Assembly (NCBI GenBank): GCA_035516965.1
Contig: DATIZR010000028.1
Span: 1 to 41,745 of the forward strand
Length of the DNA: 41,745 nucleotides
Direction: 5' to 3'
DNA from: Nitrospirota bacterium
GTDB lineage: Bacteria; Nitrospirota; UBA9217
In this document: in pieces, positions 1 to 10,722 of the stretch
Layout: each line of letters opens with the position of its first letter
How positions within the stretch are numbered: position 1 is the first letter of the stretch
Program-made: the position numbers and the translations under genes
Notes under the pieces: model-generated
The model's database searches: none
What the model saw: only the letters and a program-made list of their open reading frames with translations
Told to the model about the DNA's origin: nothing

Positions 1-1404
1 GTAACCATCGCGAACGGGACCGCTGCGGGCACGCTGATCAACAACTCAGCAACAATCAGCAACCCGGGAAACATCGGAGGGACGCCTACAGCACCAACGA
101 TCACGGTCTCGGTCTCACAGGTACCGTCGACTGGAAACAAATCGCTCTACCTGTATGACAGCACATCCACACCGGCCTACAAACTTTCGCGAACGCCGGT
201 CCCGACGAACCCCGTGCCGGGGAATATTGCACTTGCTTCAGGCGCAACTCAGACATGGACGCTGAGTCCCGTACTCCAGTCCCAGGAGACCCTCGCCACC
301 TCGATCAGCAACACGATTCCCGTCACGCTCTACCTGACGAGCACCGCCGCCACGACCGTCGCGGTTTCCCTGGCATGCTCTTCCGGCGGCACGTCGATCT
401 CGAGCGGCAGCCTCAGCATCGCCGCCCTGGGAACGCAGACGGCCGAGGTATTCAGCCTGTCGCTGAACGGAGTGAATCAGACCTGCCCTACGGGCAGTTC
501 CTGGAAACTCGGCGTAAAGAACAATACGGCGGGAACCGTCAGGGTCTACCCTGCCTATGGTTCCAGCCGATCCCTCATCAACCTGCCGTGCCAGAACGTC
601 ATCACGGTCATGAGCGTCAACGCGTACAGCACGGCCTATCCCGGCACAACGGTACCCGCCTACTTCAGCCCCGGCACCACGATCTACACACGCGCGACCG
701 TAAGCGACCCCTTCGGGAGCTACGACATTACCTCGGCAACGGTCACGATCAAGAACACCAATAACACGGTCGTGGTGAACAATGCCGTCATGACCCAGGT
801 GTTCGACTCGGGAGCGGCGACCAAGGTCTTTGAATACGCGTACACCACCCTCCCATCCTCGGGGCCCAACGGGTCGTGGACGTTTACCGTAACCGCGCAG
901 GAAGGCCTGCTCACGGAAATCCCGGTGCCTCCCTCGGACAACAGGACCGGTACGTTCCCCGTGGTAGCCCTGTTCCCGAGCCTCGTGGTCGTGAAATCGG
1001 TCGTGGTCAGCTCGGATCCCATCAACGGCACGAGCAACCCCAAGGCCATCCCCGGAGCGGTGATGCTCTATACGATCACCGTCACGAACAGCGGCTCGGG
1101 CACTGCGGACAGCAGCTCCATAGCGATGACCGATCCGATACCTGCCAATACCACGATGTACATCGACCCGACTCCTTCCAACTCAGTGACCTTCTCATGC
1201 AGTGCCGCGCCCGCTTGCGGGCTGACATGGAACTACGCAACGAATGTAACGTACTCGAACCAGGCCGGCGGCGGACCGCCGTTCACGTATACGCCATCGA
1301 CCGGCTATGACCCGAACATCAAAGGCGTCCAGATCATCCCGACGGGGGTTCTGAACGGCGGCAACGCCAATTTTACCGTGACCTACAAGGTGCAGGTGAA
1401 TTGA
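1..1404 (+). CDS. DUF11 surface protein, C-terminal part (5'-truncated by window edge)
   Basis: Frame 1 is open from the first base, so the gene starts outside the window; 467 residues are visible. A start inside the window, such as GTG at 214, is unlikely because the upstream codons continue the same Thr/Ser/Asn-rich composition. The visible N-terminal part carries an AGTLINNSATIS module. A middle beta-rich, Ig-like stretch follows (about residues 200-310). A DUF11 repeat lies at about residues 325-467, with the signature SDPINGTSNPKAIPGAV and a following 'tNsGsgtad' segment. DUF11 domains are known from secreted or cell-surface proteins, often as adhesive stalks. There is no anchor at the C-terminus, so the protein is probably secreted or held by partners. 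Downstream genes on the same strand share these modules, which suggests one operon. The exact function is unknown. Confidence 0.85.
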   Translation, partial: VTIANGTAAGTLINNSATISNPGNIGGTPTAPTITVSVSQVPSTGNKSLYLYDSTSTPAYKLSRTPVPTNPVPGNIALASGATQTWTLSPVLQSQETLATSISNTIPVTLYLTSTAATTVAVSLACSSGGTSISSGSLSIAALGTQTAEVFSLSLNGVNQTCPTGSSWKLGVKNNTAGTVRVYPAYGSSRSLINLPCQNVITVMSVNAYSTAYPGTTVPAYFSPGTTIYTRATVSDPFGSYDITSATVTIKNTNNTVVVNNAVMTQVFDSGAATKVFEYAYTTLPSSGPNGSWTFTVTAQEGLLTEIPVPPSDNRTGTFPVVALFPSLVVVKSVVVSSDPINGTSNPKAIPGAVMLYTITVTNSGSGTADSSSIAMTDPIPANTTMYIDPTPSNSVTFSCSAAPACGLTWNYATNVTYSNQAGGGPPFTYTPSTGYDPNIKGVQIIPTGVLNGGNANFTVTYKVQVN

Positions 1405-1447
1405 ACACGGTGTCCATATGGAAAAAATACTAAAGGAGGGATACAAG

Positions 1448-1939
1448 ATGAAAACAGTTGTGCAGGCGGCAATAGTAGTTCTACTTCTCATGCCCGCGGC
1501 GGCCTTCGCCCAGAAAAGCGCGATCCAGCTGAAATCAGCGGCGGAAGTCGATGTCATGGAGAAGAACGCGAAGGGCGAAATGGAGACGAAGCGGAAGGAC
1601 GTTTCCCAGGTAAAGGTCATCCCCGGCGACGTCGTCATCTTCACCACGACGTACACGAATACGGGAAAAGATCCGGCAACAGGCGTGGTCGTCACCAACC
1701 CCGTTCCCGAGCACATGGTCTACGTGGCAGGGTCAGCGGAGGGAAAGGACTGCCGCATCGAATTCTCGGCGGACAACGGCAAGACCTTCGCTTCCGTGGA
1801 CAAGCTCACGGTGACCGCGAAGGACGGCAAGGTGCGCAGCGCCGGCGCGGAGGACATCACGAACATCAGATGGACCCTGCTCAAGCCCCTGGCTCCAGGC
1901 GCAGCAGGCAGCGCTGCGTTCCGCGCAAGGCTCAAATAA
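1448..1939 (+). CDS. Small secreted DUF11-like protein
   Basis: A 163-residue protein. The ATG at 1448 is chosen because a very strong Shine-Dalgarno AAAGGAGGG (1432-1440) lies 7 bases before it and the product then begins with a clean signal peptide (MKTVVQ, a hydrophobic run, then AAAFAQ with cleavage near residue 22). An in-frame ATG at 1418 would add ten residues and bury the SD. The mature protein is a single beta-sandwich-like unit with DUF11 hallmarks: 'IPGDVVIFTTTYTNTGKDPATGV', then 'TNPVPEHMVYV', and a closing 'RWTLLKPLAPGAAGSAAFRARLK'. It has one Cys, so no disulfide within the chain. It follows the truncated DUF11 gene by 43 bases. It may be a minor subunit, chaperone or capping protein of the surface system; that is inference. 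Confidence 0.85.
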   Translation: MKTVVQAAIVVLLLMPAAAFAQKSAIQLKSAAEVDVMEKNAKGEMETKRKDVSQVKVIPGDVVIFTTTYTNTGKDPATGVVVTNPVPEHMVYVAGSAEGKDCRIEFSADNGKTFASVDKLTVTAKDGKVRSAGAEDITNIRWTLLKPLAPGAAGSAAFRARLK

Positions 1940-1986
1940 GGGTTGTCTGAAAAATAACAACCGATATTGAAATGGAGGATTACGCC

Positions 1987-2148
1987 ATGGAAAAGAGAAC
2001 AGAGAACGCGAGGAGGTGGAGGCCCAATCATATTTATGAGAACGATCCCTGAACAATAAAACGAAGGAGGACAGACATGAACGATTTCGAACACAAGGAA
2101 CGGAATACGAGAACGATTCTCAACTATAAAAAAAGGAGACAGACATGA
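1987..2148 (+). other. Two possible leader mini-ORFs ahead of the second DUF11 gene
   Basis: Two short frames sit between the small DUF11 gene and the next one. One (1987-2052) would encode 21 residues starting MEKRTENARR. The other (2077-2148) would encode 23 residues starting MNDFEHKERN and is preceded by an AAGGAGG at 2064-2070. The stop codon of the second overlaps the ATG of the next gene (ATGA at 2145-2148), which is the classical arrangement for translational coupling. Neither peptide is recognisable. They could be true leader peptides, or by-products of duplicated ribosome-binding regions (see the repeat entry). Confidence 0.3.
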
Positions 2149-2155
2149 GAACGAT
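2036..2155 (+). repeat. Duplicated translation-initiation segments
   Basis: The sequence ATGAGAACGAT, or a one-to-two-base variant of it, occurs at 2036-2046, 2077-2085 (two bases shorter), 2107-2117 (ACG for ATG) and 2145-2155. The copies at 2077 and 2145 are both preceded by a purine-rich SD followed by ACAGACATGA. The spacing is 30-41 bases. The pattern looks like decayed tandem copies of a ribosome-binding/start region, of which the last is the start of the 359-residue DUF11 gene. Confidence 0.55.
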
Positions 2156-3224
2156 GCATTTGAATAAGCTGGCGATCGTCCTTTGTATAGCAGCCTTCGC
2201 CCTCATCATGCCGCAGCTGGCCCAGGCGGCGGGGACGGCAGCCAACACGACGATCAGCAATACCGCGACCGTGAGCTATGTGGTCAGCGGCGTCACCCAG
2301 AGCGCAGTGAGCGGGTCCACGTCCTTCAAAGTGGACATCAAGGTCAACCAGACCGTGAAGAATATCACGGGCTCCAACATCGTGGCAGGCCAGACAGGCA
2401 CGACCGCCGTCATGGTATTTACCGTTACGAACAACGGCAATGCGACCCAGAACTACGCTCTTTCAGCCGTTGCGCTGGGGAATACCATGAACAATATCAG
2501 GTTCTACAAGGACAACAACAATAACGGCCTGGTGGATGGCGGTGATACGCTGTATGCCGATGCAACCACCTTCGGCAGTCTCGCCTCCGACGCGACCTAC
2601 ACGGTGCTGCTCGTAGCGGATGCTCCTGCAACCGGCTGGACCCAGACGAACGGGAGCACGGCGCCTTATGCACTGGTTGCTCAGACCACGAACGCCGGCA
2701 CGACAACGGTAACGACCCAGCCGGGCGGCGCTGCCGGAAGCGGAACGGCCGTTGTGTTTGCCGATGCTGCCGGTACGTCTGACGCCCTTCATGACGGTCA
2801 GCACTCAGCGACCGGGACGTATACCGTATCAACGGCAACCATAGCCGTAACGAAGACGTCGGTCGTGTACTCCGATCCGATCAACGGGACCTCGAGCCCC
2901 AAGGCGATTCCCGGGGCAGTCCTTACCTACACCGTGCAGGTCTCGAACACGGGCTCCCAGCCGGCGACGAGCGTGGCCATCTCGGACAATCTGAATACGG
3001 AAATCACCAACGGGCACATCGCTTTTAATACGGCTTTTCTCGATGGCAGCAACAACTGCGGCGCGGGGTTAGGAGTCGTCGTGAATGCTGTGTGCAAAAC
3101 GAACACCAACGATGGAGACGGCGTCGACTTCGGCATAACCGGTGCTAATACCGTGACCGTGTCAGGCCTCACCATTCCTGCCAGCAGCAGCGCGACCATC
3201 AAGTACCAGGTGGTCATCCAGTAG
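2145..3224 (+). CDS. Secreted DUF11 domain protein
   Basis: A 359-residue protein with an N-terminal signal peptide: MRTMHLNK, a hydrophobic stretch, then a cleavage site near AQAAG at about residue 29. The ATG at 2145 has AAAAGGAG directly upstream; an internal ATG at 2154 is also possible and would only shorten the n-region. After cleavage comes an 'ANTTISNTATVSYVVSG' module that matches the N-termini of the neighbouring cluster proteins. A middle Ig-like part includes an acidic 'DNNNNGLVDGGD' loop (about residues 122-133) that resembles a calcium-binding dockerin-like loop. A C-terminal DUF11 repeat has SDPINGTSSPKAIPGAV, nearly identical to the first gene's. There is no membrane anchor. 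It is likely exported to the surface with the other cluster proteins; the role is inferred, possibly a structural or adhesive subunit. Confidence 0.88.
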   Translation: MRTMHLNKLAIVLCIAAFALIMPQLAQAAGTAANTTISNTATVSYVVSGVTQSAVSGSTSFKVDIKVNQTVKNITGSNIVAGQTGTTAVMVFTVTNNGNATQNYALSAVALGNTMNNIRFYKDNNNNGLVDGGDTLYADATTFGSLASDATYTVLLVADAPATGWTQTNGSTAPYALVAQTTNAGTTTVTTQPGGAAGSGTAVVFADAAGTSDALHDGQHSATGTYTVSTATIAVTKTSVVYSDPINGTSSPKAIPGAVLTYTVQVSNTGSQPATSVAISDNLNTEITNGHIAFNTAFLDGSNNCGAGLGVVVNAVCKTNTNDGDGVDFGITGANTVTVSGLTIPASSSATIKYQVVIQ

Positions 3225-3234
3225 GAGGCTTAGC

Positions 3235-3263
3235 GCTCCCTGCCCTTTTCCGGGGCAGGGAGC
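3235..3263 (+). terminator. Intercistronic GC-rich hairpin without U-tract
   Basis: A perfect 11-bp stem (GCTCCCTGCCC at 3235-3245 pairing with GGGCAGGGAGC at 3253-3263) with a 7-base loop lies 10 bases after the DUF11 stop and 13 bases before the next start. No T-run follows, so it is not a standard intrinsic terminator. It may protect the upstream mRNA from 3' decay or reduce read-through and translation of the large downstream gene, since the only purine-rich ribosome-binding candidate lies in its 3' arm. Confidence 0.6.
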
Positions 3264-3276
3264 ATGATGTCTATCC

Positions 3277-6200
3277 ATGCGGGGCCGGCTTCTGAAATAC
3301 AGGGCAGCACTGGCGGCGCTTATAGCCCGAACAGGCGCAGTGCGCCCTGAATCGGGAGCGGCCCCCCGTTTTTCATCCGCACTCATTTTCTTATTCGTCT
3401 TTATACTTGCATTTACTTCTCTGCTCCATTCCAACGCCGGCGCAGCAACCCCTGCCGGCACGGTCATCAACAATGTCGCGACGGTCACGTTCATGTATGG
3501 GTCCCTGGGCGGCCCGCTAACGGCCAATTCCAACATGACATCGGTTACCACCATCGCGTCACGAACCACGGCAACAATCGAACTCATGCAGTATGCTCCT
3601 TCCGCGCCCGGCGCCCAGAATGTCGTGGTCGGGCCGACCGCGTACAGCACCAGCGGTGCGTCAGCCGGCCCCTTTGTCCCTGAGGCGCCGCCGATGGCCG
3701 CCGGAGGCGCGCCGATCAATCTCGCAAACCCGCTCCCCCTGGTCCCGGTGACACTGTACCACGCTGGCGAGCCCGTGTTCATCCGCTTGACCGACCATGA
3801 CCAAAACCTCAACCCCGCAGTTGCGGACACGGTGATCGTCACGATCCGGGACAACGCGACCGGCGACAGCGAGGTGCTCCGGATCACGGAGACAGGTCCG
3901 AACACCGGCGTGTTCACCGGATATATCCAGACAGGTCCTGGACCCTCCGCGAGCGGAAACGGCACCCTGAACGTAACTACGGCCTCGATGGTGACCGCCT
4001 CCTACACCGACGTCGCCGACAACACGGATGCCCATTCCGCATGGGCGCTGGTCGACCCTCTCGGCCTGGTCTTCGACAGCATGACGGGCCAGCCGGTGAA
4101 TGGGGCGACAGTCACGATCATCGACTCGGCAACCAATCTGCCGGCGACCGTGTTCGGCGATGACGGTGTTTCATCCTTCCCGTCGAGCGTCATCTCGGGA
4201 GGCTCCGCCGCGGACAGCAGCGGCAAGGCGTATGTGTTTACGCCGGGGGGGTTCCGCTTCCCGTTCATCAGGCCCGGCCAGTACCGCCTGACCGTCACGC
4301 CGCCCAATGGATACCGGGCGCCGTCGGGCGTTCCCACATCGTTCATCCAGACTTTGCCGGGAGGCCCCTTCGCGATCGTGCCAGGTTCGCGGGGCGACGC
4401 ATTTATCGTGAATGCGGGCCCGGCCGTCCGCATCGATGTTCCCATCGACCCTGTTTCGGGAGGTCTGTGGCTTATGAAGACAGCCGGCAAGGCCACCGCG
4501 GCAACCGGCGATTTCGTCCCCTACACGCTCATTCTGGAGAATACCGTCTCCTCCGCAATCGCGCCTGCTGTGTCCGTTGTTGACCGGCTCGCTCCGGGGT
4601 TCCGGTATCAGAAGGGATCGGCCCGTATAAACGGCGTGCTGCTCGCCGACCCTGCTGTCTCCCCCGACGGCCGCGGCCTCACCTTTGCGGTCGGAGACCT
4701 CGCTCCGTCAGCCACGGCAACGATCACCTATGTGACCGGGGTCACGGCAGGAGCCAGGCCCGGGACGGCGATCAACATGGCCTCTGCCGTCAGTTCCCTG
4801 GGGGCCTCCTCGAATATTGCGACAGCAACGGTCCAGATCGTCGAGGACCTCTTCCATAGCACGGCTACCATTGCCGGCCGCGTGGTCATAGACGGATGCG
4901 GCGACCCGGCGCTCCCGGGAGACGGCCTGGCCGGCGTCAGGATCTACCTCGAGGACGGCACGTCGGTCGTGAGCGACAAGAACGGACAGTTCCATTTCCC
5001 TGCCGTAAAACCCGGGTCCCACGTGGTGCAGCTCGACACAGTGACCGTCCCGGAAGAGTATGAGGTCGGGCTCTGCGAGGACAACACGGCCTTCTCCAAC
5101 CGGGCTTTCTCGCAGTTCGTCGACCTCCAGGGCGGCACGCTCTGGCGCGCCGATTTTCATCTTGTACCGAAGCCGGACACCACGGGCGAGATCGGCATCG
5201 AGCTCCGCTCGGCCCTGAAGACGGGCGGCACCGGCACGCGCGCCGAGGCCGGCAAGGAAGTCATCTCCTACGCGGTCCCGCTCCATGCGGGTTCAGTGCC
5301 GGCACGGGACCTGCGCGTGACCGTCATGCTGCCGGAGGGAGCAACCTACCTTCCAGCGACCAGCGCGCTGAACGCCTCTCCCGTCGACGACCCGCAGATC
5401 ACGGGGGGGGCGGTCACGTTCAGGATACCCGAGGCAACCGCAGGCTGGGAAGGAACGATCCGGTTCGAAGCGCTGGTCCCGGTCGGGGGCCCCGCCGGAG
5501 AACTGACCACGCGGGCCGTGCTCATGGCGGACACGCCAAGGGCCAGGAACGTGCGCACACCTGTCGTGGAAACGACGATCAATCGCGTCATGATCGAACA
5601 GCATCAATCCGTGCCCGACATCGTGCTCCGTCCCCGCTTCGCTTCGCTCAGCGCTGCGCTTACGGAGGCGGACAGGAAACAGCTCGACAGCATCGCCAAG
5701 AACATGGACCGCATCGTCGTGGAGCGCATCACGGTGACCGGTCACACCGATTCTCTGCCGATCCTCCACGGCGGCAGGAAAAAATTCGCGGACAATTACG
5801 TCCTGTCGCGCGCGCGCGCCGAGACTATCGCAGCGTATCTTGCAAAGGCCCTCGGACTCCCGGACGACCGGGTCACGATCATCGGGAAGGGACCCGATGA
5901 GCCCGTGGCGACGAACAAGACCACAAAGGGACGCACGCTGAATCGCCGCGTCGAGCTGCAGGTCGAAACGAAACAGATCATCTATACCGCGGAGCTGCAT
6001 GGCAACAATGACAGCAGCGGCATGAAAGTTGTTGCCACCCGGGGCCTGCCGGCCGGCCGGGCTTGGAAGTCCGCGGCCCCCGGTGTTGACCCGCCCGCGA
6101 TGGACCCGAAGACGATGCCGGAATACGATGCCGCATGGCTCGAGACCGCACAGCCCGGAACGGCGTGGCTCTGGCCTGCTGAGGGACGTCTTCCCGTGAT

Positions 6201-9200
6201 CGCAAACACAAAGATCGCGATCAAGCATGATCCGGGCTCGCGCGTCAGGCTCCTGCAAAACGGGGCTGAGGTGGAGGGAATCTACTTCGAGGGAACCGCA
6301 AGAAAGGCGGACAACACGCTGGCGGTCAGCGTCTGGAAGGGCATCCATCTCTTTGACGGGGACAACCGGTTCGAGGCCGTCCTGCTCGATGCGTCCGGTG
6401 CGGAAACGGGCCGCGTAGAGCGTATCATCCATTATTCCGGCCGGCCGGTACGGGCGGAGCTCGTGCCCGAACGCTCCCGCCTGATCGCCGACGGCAGAAC
6501 TCCGTCGGTGATCGCCGTCCGTCTGTTCGACAAGGACAGCCGTCCTGCGCTGGAGGGAATCCGGGAAGACTACGTGGTGGACCCGCCCTATCTGCCGCAG
6601 AAGCGGGTCCAGGAACTCCAACAGTCTCCCCTCACGGCCGCGGCCACGGACCGGTTGAAGTATGAAGTGGGCGAAAACGGCATCGCGCTCATCGAACTCG
6701 CCCCCACGACCCAGACCGGCCAGGCGGTCCTGCGGTTGACCTTCGAGAATAGCACCCAGGAACTGCGCGTCTGGCTCAAACCCGAAGTCCGCGACTGGAT
6801 CCTCGTGGGCCTTGCAGAAGGCACCGCGGGGTACAACCGGGTGACGGGCAACATGGAGACCATGGCCAACTCGGGGGCAGAAGACCGGTACTATAACGAC
6901 GGCAGGGTGGCGTTCTATGCCAAGGGCCAGATCAAGGGTGAGTGGCTGCTGACGGCGGCCTACGAAAGCTCAGCGGCGAACGCGACGGGCAACCGGAGCA
7001 TGTACCAGACCATCGATCCCAACAAGTACTACACGCTCTACGGCGATTCCACGGATACGCACTACGACGCGGCGAGCGCCAAACGCATCTACATCAAGCT
7101 CGAGCGCGACCAGTTCTACGCGCTCTTCGGCGATTACGACACCGGACTCACGGTCACCGAGCTCTCCCGGTACAGCAGGAACTTCACGGGGTTCAAGTCC
7201 GAGTTGAAGAGCGACAAGGCGGACGCCACCGTGTTCGCGAGCGAGACGAACCAGGCCTTCGTCCGGGACGAGATCCCCGGCGACGGAACGTCCGGCCTGT
7301 ACCGGCTTTCGCGCAGGAACATCGTCATCAACTCGGAAACGATCGTTATCGAGACCCGTGACCGTTTCCACAGTGAGGTGATCCTCTCCACCCAGCAGCT
7401 CAGCCGTTATCTTGACTACACGATCGACTACGACTCGGGCACGCTATTCTTCAAGTCGCCGGTCTTCAACCGGGACAGCAACTTTAACCCCATTTACATC
7501 GTGGCAGCCTACGAGTCATTCGACGCATCGGACCTGTCCTATAATTATGGAGGCCGGGGCGCGGTCCGGCTCATGGACAACCGCGTCGAAGTTGGCGGCA
7601 CGTACATCCACGAGGGTCAGGTCGGGGGAGCCTCGGACCTGATCGGGACCGATGCGACCGTGAAATTGAGCGAGACGACAAAAGCCAGGGCCGAGATCGC
7701 CGAGACGAGAAACAACGATCCCCTGGCCGGCGGTACGGCCTCCGCGTATCTTACGGAAGTGACCCACCAGTCTGCCCGGTTCGACGGTAAGGTCTACGTG
7801 CGCGAGGAGGAGCAGGGCTTCGGCCTGGGACAGCAGAATGTGAGTGAATCCGGAACGCGCAAGATGGGCGTCGATCTCGCCTACCGCTTCACGGAAGCGG
7901 CCAGCCTCAGGAGCTCGGCCTTCCGGCAGGAGACCCTGAGCACCGGCGCCGTCCGCGACGTCGGCGAGCTTCAGGGCAGGTACGCCGCCTCGGGCTCGGA
8001 ATACTTCGCCGGGCTGCGGCATGCCGAGGATTCCTTCAGCACCGGCATGGTCGAGGAGTCGGACCAGATATTCGGAGGGATCCGGTACCGCGCGAATGAC
8101 CGCCTGACCCTGCGACTCCAGCACGATGAGACGGTTGGCGGCCGCGGCGAGAACGCCGATTACCCCACGCGGACGACCATGGGAGCCGACTACAGGCTGA
8201 ATACGAGCTCGACCCTCTTCGTCGACGAGGAACTCACCAGGGGCGACGATCGGAGCACGGCGACGACGCGGGTGGGTCTGCGATCCTCGCCCTGGACGGG
8301 CGCACAGATCGGTTCGACCATGGAGCAGCAGGCGACCGAATCCGGGACCCGGCTCTTTTCCACCACGGGGCTCAAACAGAGCTGGCAGATCAGCAAGGAA
8401 TGGAGCGTTGATGCCGGGCTCGACAGGTCGTCTACGATCCATCATTCGGAAACGTTCCTGCCGAACCCCAACGTGCCGCCCGCTTCAGGAGGCGAAGACT
8501 TTACGGCCGTGACGCTCGGCGCGGGATACCGCCAGGAACACTGGTCCTGGACCGGCAGGATCGAACACCGCGTCTCGGACCTTGAACGGAGGATCGGAAT
8601 GTTCACGGGTGCCAACGGCGAGCTGATGCCGGGATGGGGATTGGCCGGAGCGTTCCAGGGATTCCGGACCGACGGAATAACGGGATCCAGCAAAAAGAAC
8701 GAGGACCTGCGTCTGGGCTTCGCCTACCGCCCGCCCCAGGCCCGATGGATCATCCTCGACCGCCTTGATCTCATTGTTGAAGAGCAGGAGGACTTCGTGT
8801 CCGCAGCGTACAACAACCGCCGCGTGGTCAACAACCTGAGTGCAAACTACAAGGTTCCCAACATGGGGCAGGTCTCACTGCAGTACGGAGCAAAGTACGT
8901 CGGAGAAACCATAGACAGCCAGGACTTCCATGGCTATACGGACCTGATCGGTCTGGAGGGCCGTTACGACATCACCAAGCGCTTGGATGTGGGTCTCCGC
9001 GGCAGCACGCTCCGCTCGTGGAGTGCCGACCAGAAGCAGTATGGAAGCGCCCTCTCGGTGGGCGTGACCTTAAGCACCAACCTGTGGATGAGCATCGGAT
9101 ATAACATGACCGGATATAGGGACCGTGATTTTTCGAAATCCGAGTTCACCGCCGCCGGCCCGTTCATCAAACTGCGGCTCAAGTTCGACCAGGCAACGGT

Positions 9201-9234
9201 GCGGGAAGCCGCCAAGTGGGCCACCGGACAGTAG
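3277..9234 (+). CDS. Large outer-membrane protein: DUF11, SdrD B-like, OmpA-like and beta-barrel domains
   Basis: A 1985-residue protein. The ATG at 3277 is the only good in-frame start. A long basic n-region precedes a hydrophobic signal core at about residues 34-50, ending NAGA. Domains in order: a 'PAGTVINNVATVTF' module just after cleavage; an Ig-like unit at about 159-223 with 'LTDHDQNLNPAVADTV' and 'ITETGPNTGVFTG'; a carboxypeptidase-regulatory-like unit; DUF11 at about 398-498; an SdrD B-like unit at about 532-587 ('IAGRVVIDGCGD', 'SDKNGQFHFPAVKPG'); a second DUF11-like unit at about 660-750; an OmpA C-like domain at about 772-898 with 'TGHTDSLPI' and the diaminopimelate-binding 'NRRVEL'; a further beta-rich segment; then from about 1172 to the end an aromatic-rich alternating beta-strand region typical of a large outer-membrane barrel. 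It probably anchors or exports the DUF11 proteins encoded upstream; that part is inference. Confidence 0.88.
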   Translation: MRGRLLKYRAALAALIARTGAVRPESGAAPRFSSALIFLFVFILAFTSLLHSNAGAATPAGTVINNVATVTFMYGSLGGPLTANSNMTSVTTIASRTTATIELMQYAPSAPGAQNVVVGPTAYSTSGASAGPFVPEAPPMAAGGAPINLANPLPLVPVTLYHAGEPVFIRLTDHDQNLNPAVADTVIVTIRDNATGDSEVLRITETGPNTGVFTGYIQTGPGPSASGNGTLNVTTASMVTASYTDVADNTDAHSAWALVDPLGLVFDSMTGQPVNGATVTIIDSATNLPATVFGDDGVSSFPSSVISGGSAADSSGKAYVFTPGGFRFPFIRPGQYRLTVTPPNGYRAPSGVPTSFIQTLPGGPFAIVPGSRGDAFIVNAGPAVRIDVPIDPVSGGLWLMKTAGKATAATGDFVPYTLILENTVSSAIAPAVSVVDRLAPGFRYQKGSARINGVLLADPAVSPDGRGLTFAVGDLAPSATATITYVTGVTAGARPGTAINMASAVSSLGASSNIATATVQIVEDLFHSTATIAGRVVIDGCGDPALPGDGLAGVRIYLEDGTSVVSDKNGQFHFPAVKPGSHVVQLDTVTVPEEYEVGLCEDNTAFSNRAFSQFVDLQGGTLWRADFHLVPKPDTTGEIGIELRSALKTGGTGTRAEAGKEVISYAVPLHAGSVPARDLRVTVMLPEGATYLPATSALNASPVDDPQITGGAVTFRIPEATAGWEGTIRFEALVPVGGPAGELTTRAVLMADTPRARNVRTPVVETTINRVMIEQHQSVPDIVLRPRFASLSAALTEADRKQLDSIAKNMDRIVVERITVTGHTDSLPILHGGRKKFADNYVLSRARAETIAAYLAKALGLPDDRVTIIGKGPDEPVATNKTTKGRTLNRRVELQVETKQIIYTAELHGNNDSSGMKVVATRGLPAGRAWKSAAPGVDPPAMDPKTMPEYDAAWLETAQPGTAWLWPAEGRLPVIANTKIAIKHDPGSRVRLLQNGAEVEGIYFEGTARKADNTLAVSVWKGIHLFDGDNRFEAVLLDASGAETGRVERIIHYSGRPVRAELVPERSRLIADGRTPSVIAVRLFDKDSRPALEGIREDYVVDPPYLPQKRVQELQQSPLTAAATDRLKYEVGENGIALIELAPTTQTGQAVLRLTFENSTQELRVWLKPEVRDWILVGLAEGTAGYNRVTGNMETMANSGAEDRYYNDGRVAFYAKGQIKGEWLLTAAYESSAANATGNRSMYQTIDPNKYYTLYGDSTDTHYDAASAKRIYIKLERDQFYALFGDYDTGLTVTELSRYSRNFTGFKSELKSDKADATVFASETNQAFVRDEIPGDGTSGLYRLSRRNIVINSETIVIETRDRFHSEVILSTQQLSRYLDYTIDYDSGTLFFKSPVFNRDSNFNPIYIVAAYESFDASDLSYNYGGRGAVRLMDNRVEVGGTYIHEGQVGGASDLIGTDATVKLSETTKARAEIAETRNNDPLAGGTASAYLTEVTHQSARFDGKVYVREEEQGFGLGQQNVSESGTRKMGVDLAYRFTEAASLRSSAFRQETLSTGAVRDVGELQGRYAASGSEYFAGLRHAEDSFSTGMVEESDQIFGGIRYRANDRLTLRLQHDETVGGRGENADYPTRTTMGADYRLNTSSTLFVDEELTRGDDRSTATTRVGLRSSPWTGAQIGSTMEQQATESGTRLFSTTGLKQSWQISKEWSVDAGLDRSSTIHHSETFLPNPNVPPASGGEDFTAVTLGAGYRQEHWSWTGRIEHRVSDLERRIGMFTGANGELMPGWGLAGAFQGFRTDGITGSSKKNEDLRLGFAYRPPQARWIILDRLDLIVEEQEDFVSAAYNNRRVVNNLSANYKVPNMGQVSLQYGAKYVGETIDSQDFHGYTDLIGLEGRYDITKRLDVGLRGSTLRSWSADQKQYGSALSVGVTLSTNLWMSIGYNMTGYRDRDFSKSEFTAAGPFIKLRLKFDQATVREAAKWATGQ

Positions 9235-9429: not shown

Positions 9430-10722
9430 ATGCAAAAGCAAACTATCCTGCTTATACAATCTACACTGACGCGGGGAAATGACACCCAGCGCCTCCTTGA
9501 GGGGAACGGCTACAAGGTTTTCGTGAGCGGTTCTGTCCTTACTGCGCTCACAATAACTCGGCAGGAAGTCATCGATCTGATCCTCCTCGATGTTGCGCTC
9601 CCCGACATCGAGGGCCTTGATCTCTGCCATCGGTTCAGGAAGCGGCCTGATACACGCTCCATTCCGATCATCCTGATCACCGCGCGGGGGTATACGCCGG
9701 AGCATATGGCAGACAAAGCGTATGGTCCCGACGATTATCTGGCGAAACCGTACACCGGAAGCGAACTCAGGAACCGCATCGCGTGTGTGCTCAACGGAAA
9801 GACGGTCGCTGTGGAGCAGGATGTGAAACAGCGCCTGAGACCGATGCCGACCGTTGATGCCACACAACAGGGTTCGAACGGGGCAACAATCCAGTTCCCG
9901 GAGCCGCGTCCGGCCCTGATCACCGTGATGCAGCAGACACCCAAGCCGAATCTGAAACTCGTTCCGAATGCGCCGCCGGCCCACCGTTCTCAGCCTGCAT
10001 CAGCAGCGGCACGGAAACGGGAATTGACACCCGAACAAAACGTGAAGCCCGGCCCCTTTCTTCATGCAGTGCCTCCGGCTGACTTGATGCTGATCTCCAA
10101 ACAGGGCCCGGAAGACATTCGAAAACCTGAACCGGCGCCCTCTCACGGACGAGGATCGAATCCGGAAAAACAGTCAGAGTTACATCAGGATAATCGGTCG
10201 CCTCCGATTCTTTCGTTCGCTGGCACGGGAGATACTGTCGACGATCCCGCGACGGGACTGTTCGGGCGTCCACAATTCGAGGCGATGTTTTCTAAGGAGT
10301 TCAAGAGGGCCGTACGCTTTCAACAGCAGATGAGCTGCATGCTGATCAACCTGGACGGTCAGAAGATGATGCGCAGGGCCGACGAAGGCCTGGTTAAGGC
10401 GATCATCGGGCTTGTTCAGAAAACGATACGGGAAGTGGATACCGCTGCGTGGTGGTCTGGAGAAGCCTTCATCGTGCTGCTTCCGAACACGATCCGCAAC
10501 GATGCACTCCAGGCCGCGGCACGGATCCTCGAGGCCGTGGCGAACCACCCGTTTACGTGGCCCGACGCAACGAACGTCACTATGAGCATCGGAGTCGTGG
10601 GTCTGCCCGACCATAAGATCGACAGCGAACAAAAGATGATCGATGCTGCCGATGCGGTCTGCCGGCGGGCCCAGGAGCTGATGGTGCCGCCGCCAATCGA
10701 CATGTCATCCATGAAACGCTGA
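9430..10722 (+). CDS. Response regulator receiver protein with degenerate GGDEF domain
   Basis: A 430-residue cytoplasmic protein. Residues 5-118 form a CheY-like receiver with the phospho-acceptor position Asp54 (ILLDVALPDIEG), Thr84 (ILITAR) and Lys106 (LAKPY). The usual N-terminal acidic pair is missing: the first strand reads ILLIQSTL instead of ILIVDD. A Pro/Gln/Lys-rich linker (about 120-265) leads to a GGDEF fold (about 273-420) with 'DPATGLFGRPQFEAMF' at its start. The signature is SGEAF (343-347) instead of GGDEF/GGEEF, so the catalytic Glu is Ala. The inhibitory RxxD site is kept as R334-E-V-D337 at the correct spacing. The protein is therefore probably not a cyclase but may bind c-di-GMP. 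It has its own promoter and no adjacent kinase gene. No strong SD precedes the ATG. Confidence 0.85.
   Translation: MQKQTILLIQSTLTRGNDTQRLLEGNGYKVFVSGSVLTALTITRQEVIDLILLDVALPDIEGLDLCHRFRKRPDTRSIPIILITARGYTPEHMADKAYGPDDYLAKPYTGSELRNRIACVLNGKTVAVEQDVKQRLRPMPTVDATQQGSNGATIQFPEPRPALITVMQQTPKPNLKLVPNAPPAHRSQPASAAARKRELTPEQNVKPGPFLHAVPPADLMLISKQGPEDIRKPEPAPSHGRGSNPEKQSELHQDNRSPPILSFAGTGDTVDDPATGLFGRPQFEAMFSKEFKRAVRFQQQMSCMLINLDGQKMMRRADEGLVKAIIGLVQKTIREVDTAAWWSGEAFIVLLPNTIRNDALQAAARILEAVANHPFTWPDATNVTMSIGVVGLPDHKIDSEQKMIDAADAVCRRAQELMVPPPIDMSSMKR

Follow-up and report, generated by a model that had tools for sequence, protein, structure and literature searches.

A four-gene DUF11 cassette from a Nitrospirota bacterium that probably encodes a surface fibre of strand-complemented subunits

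We analysed a stretch of 41,745 nucleotides from a Nitrospirota bacterium (hereafter the window; bases 1-41745 of contig C28, DATIZR010000028.1, in a 3.8 Mb genome of 120 contigs; assembly GCA_035516965.1), the first 9,234 of which carry four genes for DUF11 proteins, P0001 to P0004. We consider it likely that this cassette encodes a surface fibre assembled head to tail, in which subunits would complete one another by donor-strand complementation and the joints would probably be sealed by spontaneous inter-subunit isopeptide bonds. That it stands for a new class of Gram-negative appendage, assembling itself covalently without sortase or chaperone-usher machinery, through split isopeptide joints and on a built-in, donor-bearing anchor that is possibly also an exporter, seems to us a little more probable than the opposite. 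The proposal draws on what the sequences contain: a displaced strand, truncated acceptor domains, Lys and Asp residues kept in these domains, an Asn in the donor strand and an association of the genes. The four open reading frames were confirmed on the + strand at 1-1404, 1418-1939, 2145-3224 and 3277-9234, and hold the following features (C86 is a contig that overlaps the start of the window, described below).

1-1404, + strand: P0001, incomplete at the contig start; acceptor-only and the probable distal tip, with no N-terminal donor module in its upstream part (C86)
22-75, + strand: AAGTLINNSATI module of P0001, the last strand (Asn15) of a complete DUF11 that lies inside the protein, from continuity with contig C86
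982-1401, + strand: P0001 acceptor domain, ending in 'FTVTYKVQVN*', with Lys332 at 994-996 and Asp378 at 1132-1134
1418-1939, + strand: P0002, a small secreted protein with a single DUF11, an acceptor-like truncation and no donor strand; the catalytic Asp is replaced by Asn94 (1697-1699)
2145-3224, + strand: P0003, the proposed two-ended shaft subunit
2232-2336, + strand: P0003 N-terminal donor strand/hairpin GTAANTTISNTATVSYVVSGVTQSAVSGSTSFKVD, with Asn39 at 2259-2261
2841-3221, + strand: P0003 C-terminal acceptor DUF11 without its last strand, ending in 'ATIKYQVVIQ*', with Lys237 (2853-2855) and Asp281 (2985-2987)
3277-9234, + strand: P0004, 1985 residues, the proposed donor-only outer-membrane anchor
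3445-3549, + strand: P0004 mature N-terminal donor strand ATPAGTVINNVATVTF..., with Asn66 at 3472-3474
4468-4860, + strand: P0004 internal complete DUF11/CLIPPER with the triad Lys401, Asp436 and Asn500, in contrast to the truncated acceptors
4918-5034, + strand: P0004 carboxypeptidase-regulatory-like domain (Pfam PF13620, E 3e-10)
5638-5946, + strand: P0004 OmpA-type peptidoglycan-binding domain, residues 788-890 (Pfam PF00691, E 1e-13)
6772-9201, + strand: P0004 C-terminal region of ~800 residues, a probable beta-barrel, without a Pfam match

The displaced strand, the truncated domains and the split triad

An earlier note on this DNA, made from the sequence alone, had reported a 'GTxINNxATV' module in the first, third and fourth proteins. 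The module is present in all three, as AAGTLINNSATI in P0001, AANTTISNTATV in P0003 and PAGTVINNVATV in P0004. A DUF11 model of 131 positions was built from the cassette loci, counted here as those that encode a P0004-like protein or carry its cassette; in its final 36 positions AAAGELTNTAVATFDTGAKSNTATATVTV is followed by a few further letters, and it is there that 'GTxINNxATV' matches. In profile-profile comparison, 62 N-terminal modules aligned with 105 internal DUF11 tails in the expected register (probability 71.5%, E 3.6e-5), and gave no alignment with the DUF11 head (0.3%) or middle (1.1%); the N-termini of the P0002 family align instead with the head (95%). On these alignments, the module is the last strand of the immunoglobulin-like (Ig-like) DUF11 (CLIPPER) domain and not a separate domain. 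In P0003 and P0004 it stands alone at the mature N-terminus, without the rest of the domain. Its onset lies at a median of 9 residues past the hydrophobic core of the signal peptide, so the module is expected at the free mature N-terminus. A model of the DUF11 tail scored above 10 bits on 13/36 N-termini of outer-membrane proteins (OMPs) and 5/51 secreted N-termini, versus 0/1740 shuffled copies of both classes; no P0002-like N-terminus reached 10 bits (0/33). The idea of a shared N-terminal module holds for P0003 and P0004 but not for P0001, where the read-through onto C86 shows it to be internal, closing a complete DUF11 domain.

The C-terminal DUF11 domains of P0001, P0002 and P0003 end exactly ahead of the module strand, and P0003 closes on its penultimate strand ('...SSSATIKYQVVIQ*'). 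Among 84 C-terminal DUF11 domains of secreted cassette proteins from 47 loci, 83 break off at positions 90-94 of the 131-position model, and 82 leave no more than 4 residues after the match; of 175 internal DUF11 domains, 161 extend beyond position 96. No LPXTG-type sorting signal with a hydrophobic anchor was found on the cassette subunits, whose chains end straight after strand F (e.g. 'ATIKYQVVIQ*'). The near-identical SDPINGT block that had been noticed in P0001 and P0003 occurs in both (SDPINGTSNPKAIPGAV and SDPINGTSSPKAIPGAV, respectively), where it opens the C-terminal truncated DUF11, and it recurs in homologues. Against Pfam PF01345, P0002 (E 9e-9) and P0004 (E 5e-7) score above the cut-off; P0001 and P0003 lie under it, and above the cut-off of TIGR01451.

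Sorted by which half they carry, the proteins fall into three classes. The P0002 family and the large P0001-like proteins are acceptor-only; P0003 has donor and acceptor, as do 'A' proteins of 350 residues, which occur in relatives and are absent from this window; and P0004 is donor-only. These are what a linear chain requires, namely one tip, shaft subunits and one base. Subunit length varies widely: in five loci (L049, L051, L052, L073 and L075) the shaft-type protein has ~900 residues rather than 350-420, with extra internal DUF11 domains.

A 2025 survey renamed DUF11 as CLIPPER and reported the structure of a domain from a Gram-negative OmpA-anchored adhesin (PDB 9IFR), in which Lys715, Asp748 and Asn806 form an autocatalytic isopeptide bond (PMC12617251). 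A phmmer search with a single DUF11 domain did not find 9IFR and a 7-sequence profile did; a profile of complete DUF11 domains from the cassette loci matches it (E 6e-6), with its invariant K, D and N aligned to the 9IFR triad. The triad Asn sits in the strand that is missing from the C-termini of cassette proteins and present at their N-termini. Within one domain the triad is complete in the internal DUF11 of P0004 (K401, D436, N500) and incomplete in the C-terminal domains. Truncated acceptors without an Asn of their own keep the Lys in 63 of 64 cases and the Asp in 62 of 64, the latter a higher share than the 76% of internal DUF11 domains that keep it (p 6e-5). The donor module carries the Asn in 59 of 62 sequences, including 22 of 22 OMPs, counted with a regular expression for the module that admitted only N, S or G at this position. 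In the window, the residues are K332/D378 in P0001, K237/D281 with donor N39 in P0003, and donor N66 in P0004. Because Lys and Asp are near-invariant in domains that lack an Asn, and the donor strand carries one, the simplest reading is that the isopeptide bond would form in trans between neighbouring subunits. Not every DUF11 member has the triad, so a split triad is compatible with membership of the family (PMC12617251).

P0002, P0003 and P0004 all begin with a signal-peptide-like sequence, and P0002, with its one DUF11 domain, answers to the small secreted protein that the earlier note had placed in the cluster. The P0002 family has retained the truncation and lost the chemistry, with Lys in 11 of 33 members and Asp in 5 of 33; the copy in the window carries Asn94 at the position of the catalytic Asp. 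P0002 is probably a cap, a tip or a chaperone that would shield donor strands before assembly.

The anchor, its relatives and the neighbouring genes

A large outer-membrane partner had also been proposed, and P0004 fits this description, with DUF11, CarboxypepD_reg and OmpA domains followed by a long C-terminal stretch compatible with a beta-barrel. The last ~800 residues are probably such a barrel: a crude amphipathicity count puts 32 strands there, at a setting that finds 24 in the known barrel of an usher. No Pfam match was obtained for this region of the window protein; among 10 members, one weak porin-like match (BBP2_2, E 0.012) was found in one of them, and PDB matches only for the preceding Ig region. 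As the region is unusually large by this crude count, P0004 could also act as an exporter. The Rhodanobacter homologue lacks the OmpA domain, which falls in a gap of the BLAST alignment, and the domain is therefore not essential to the system. In four loci (L035, L050, L074 and L076), a very large DUF11 protein (2000-3100 aa) with an 'ETEIFWRRG'-like end adjoins a separate protein that has the C-terminal barrel region of P0004 without DUF11 or donor strand, and this C-terminal region also occurs in an 11,777-residue open frame (G508:C2:461293-463992), among the longest seen.

Homologues of P0004 share 55-60% identity within the same family and ~25% elsewhere in the phylum. The only full named relative from the genome collection is Rhodanobacter spathiphylli, a gammaproteobacterium, with a syntenic arrangement (A - P0002 - P0003 - P0004) and 38-42% identity in P0004; the order of the genes holds across the window's phylum as well as Rhodanobacter's class. 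In the window's phylum, 29 of 396 genomes matched a profile of the P0004 C-terminal region, and in Rhodanobacter's class 40 of 274 did; many of the searched genomes are fragmented assemblies. No relative was found on viral contigs. Most strong P0004 matches with upstream sequence have a truncated DUF11 protein directly upstream and a P0002-family gene ~1.1-3.3 kb upstream, rates that are conditional on P0004, since the loci were chosen through its homologues. A test on 61 genomes that was not conditional on P0004 found the P0002 family in 7/7 genomes with the P0004 barrel and 0/54 without (p 2e-9). In 4 of 6 genomes scanned, DUF11 matches are confined to the cassette locus (C86 being counted as the 5' part of P0001). 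The earlier note had named two outcomes that would refute it: homologues of the large protein that usually stand alone, and a module that is merely a common DUF11 feature without genomic association. The module is a DUF11 feature, but it has moved to the N-terminus, and the genes do keep together.

P0001 is incomplete at its 5' end and has no start, base 1 of the window being base 1 of the contig. The final 594 bases of contig C86 overlap window positions 1-594 in frame with 96% identity (L107 9192-9785, where L107 is G000:C86:6000-15784), and C86 supplies 1157 aa upstream, which begin like a signal peptide and also contain a long N-terminal region, an SdrD_B-like stretch and two DUF11 domains. 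The end of C86 is probably the missing 5' part of P0001, the 4% mismatch fitting strain variation in a metagenome assembly; alternatively, it may be a second copy. The long N-terminal region has no Pfam match, and a lectin-like domain suspected there by eye was rejected as it found no support in Pfam, NCBIfam or PDB. Just upstream of the P0001 start, C86 encodes a type IV pilin-like protein or pseudopilin (FTLIEVIVVAGIIAVLAGILVP; L107 5189-5743, - strand). Among relatives, tip-type proteins have variable N-terminal regions, with a proprotein-convertase P-domain near the N-terminus in two (L068 11469-13874 and L069 4080-6359), which suggests that acceptor-only proteins carry exchangeable tip modules.

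Directly downstream of the cassette lies one further gene:

9430-10722, + strand: response regulator with a GGDEF domain (REC-GGDEF; Pfam)

By sequence inspection, response regulators also flank the cassettes of several relatives; given these and the REC-GGDEF gene, control of the cassette by cyclic di-GMP is plausible. Directly upstream of the Rhodanobacter spathiphylli cassette lies a chaperone-usher operon of archaic type, with genes for subunits, chaperone and usher (L007 537-6326). Its chaperone and usher proteins have no match among the open reading frames of the other cassette loci, and a functional link was dropped, as the operon is unique to this locus.

Proposed assembly and alternative explanations

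We infer from these features how subunits would bind by strand insertion and bond covalently, how long the polymer would be, where it would be located and what parts P0001 and P0002 would play. Each subunit would finish in a DUF11/CLIPPER domain that lacks the final strand, an open acceptor holding Lys and the catalytic Asp, and the next subunit would supply the missing strand right after its signal peptide, as a donor with the reactive Asn. P0001, acceptor-only, would form the distal and probably adhesive tip, a role supported by the variable N-terminal regions of tip proteins and the P-domain in two relatives. P0003, with donor and acceptor, would be the shaft subunit, possibly repeating, although a short chain P0001-P0003-P0004 is a possible alternative. 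P0004, donor-only and equipped with the OmpA domain and the large barrel, would terminate the chain at the outer membrane, and P0002, an acceptor with decayed chemistry, would serve as cap or donor-strand chaperone. The earlier note had suggested that the secreted and outer-membrane proteins recognise each other or polymerise; sequence logic and synteny in two distant groups strongly support this, but not through self-pairing of the module as had been supposed, since the module would be a donor strand that complements the C-terminal DUF11 domains from which it is missing.

Several points qualify this proposal. In the Rhodanobacter 350-residue A protein Lys and Asp are both gone, and in three donors the Asn is absent, which would leave some joints non-covalent; bond formation is also not universal among internal DUF11 domains (PMC12617251). 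AlphaFold2 was run in two designs on a Rhodanobacter read-through (P0003 acceptor into P0004 donor, with the stop as a residue), and the acceptor was partly confident while the donor strand stayed at pLDDT <50 in both, on alignments of 6-7 sequences only, an outcome as compatible with insertion as with its absence. A Foldseek search with the first model returned weak matches to CnaA-like and collagen-adhesin folds, which agree with the proposal but score low because most of the model was disordered. The restricted Asn count and the choice of loci through P0004, described above, are further qualifications.

In one alternative, strand exchange is real and no inter-subunit bond forms, Lys and Asp being leftovers of the CLIPPER fold. 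P0002-family acceptors are truncated in spite of having lost these residues, so truncation and bond are separable, and the Rhodanobacter A protein points the same way; but near-invariant Lys and Asp in Asn-less domains, with Asp kept above the level of internal domains, are hard to explain without an Asn in trans, and we regard this non-covalent version as unlikely. As donor and acceptor stand on the same chain in P0003 and the A proteins, the N-terminal strand could instead enter its own C-terminal domain and give stapled monomers rather than a fibre. We lend this very little credence: the donor of P0004 comes without a C-terminal acceptor, the acceptors of P0001 and P0002 come without a donor, and such unpaired halves would be useless.

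Less probable still is that the proteins are independent adhesins, clustered for co-regulation, in which truncation and N-terminal strand reflect domain duplication with a shifted boundary. DUF11 is indeed a common stalk module of adhesins (PMC12617251), but the truncation point recurs exactly, Lys and Asp are kept, the Asn strand lies at mature N-termini and the gene order is conserved. We assign the lowest probability of all to the proposal that P0004 acts chiefly as a pore through which the small DUF11 proteins are secreted, with the strand as secretion signal: the probable barrel is very large (~800 aa, crudely ~30 strands) and secreted subunits are encoded alongside, but P0004 itself carries the strand and the cargo has complementary acceptor domains. 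Export and assembly are compatible with each other, and a donor-strand fibre, probably sealed covalently, is the reading that we retain.

Comparison with known systems

One close counterpart is the CLIPPER domain 9IFR, of the same family as the cassette domains and with the Lys/Asp/Asn triad at the same positions. It has been described only as a complete, intramolecular stalk domain, whereas the cassette domain is split over two proteins and its bond would be intermolecular. Sortase-assembled Gram-positive pili and SpyTag/SpyCatcher use Lys-Asn/Asp chemistry in Ig-like domains, and a split domain of this kind is a self-coupling pair. In contrast to pili joined by sortase and to the engineered SpyTag/SpyCatcher, the cassette joint would be a naturally split domain. 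If so, the cassette would be a natural counterpart of the engineered pair, used by bacteria for a covalent fibre, and would offer a ready set of self-coupling proteins; it would also assign a role to many proteins annotated no further than 'DUF11 domain' and explain how some Gram-negatives could build shear-resistant fibres without sortase.

Chaperone-usher pili (type 1, P and archaic Csu) share with the proposed fibre an outer-membrane base, a tip with only an acceptor, and subunits in which an incomplete Ig-like domain goes with a donor strand at the N-terminus; the likeness in donor strand and incomplete domain is drawn from sequence only and involves another domain family. Unlike these pili, cassette loci have no PapD-like chaperone or usher, except for the one unrelated archaic operon beside the Rhodanobacter cassette, the joints are predicted to be covalent and the anchor itself is part of the chain. 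TasA fibres of Bacillus are Gram-positive, unrelated in sequence, and not known to have an isopeptide triad or a barrel anchor. They are reported to form by donor-strand exchange of secreted beta-sandwich subunits, as proposed here for the cassette (PMC9674648). The archaeal thread (Saci_0406) combines donor-strand complementation with a proposed intermolecular isopeptide bond, which links Asn57 to the N-terminal alpha-amino group of subunit n+2 in a homopolymer of a cell without outer membrane (PMC9715654); the predicted cassette bond differs in its residues, joining Lys and Asn of neighbours within a split CnaA-like domain.

We found no description of this system in the open-access literature, and there is a fair chance that the combination of a donor-strand fibre with isopeptide domains makes a new class of appendage. 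OmpA-anchored fibrillar adhesins such as B9T28_05395 of A. silvestris combine a DUF11 stalk with an OmpA-like domain on one large chain (PMC12617251); unlike these single-chain adhesins, the cassette would build its stalk from several proteins, on a base with a large C-terminal barrel.

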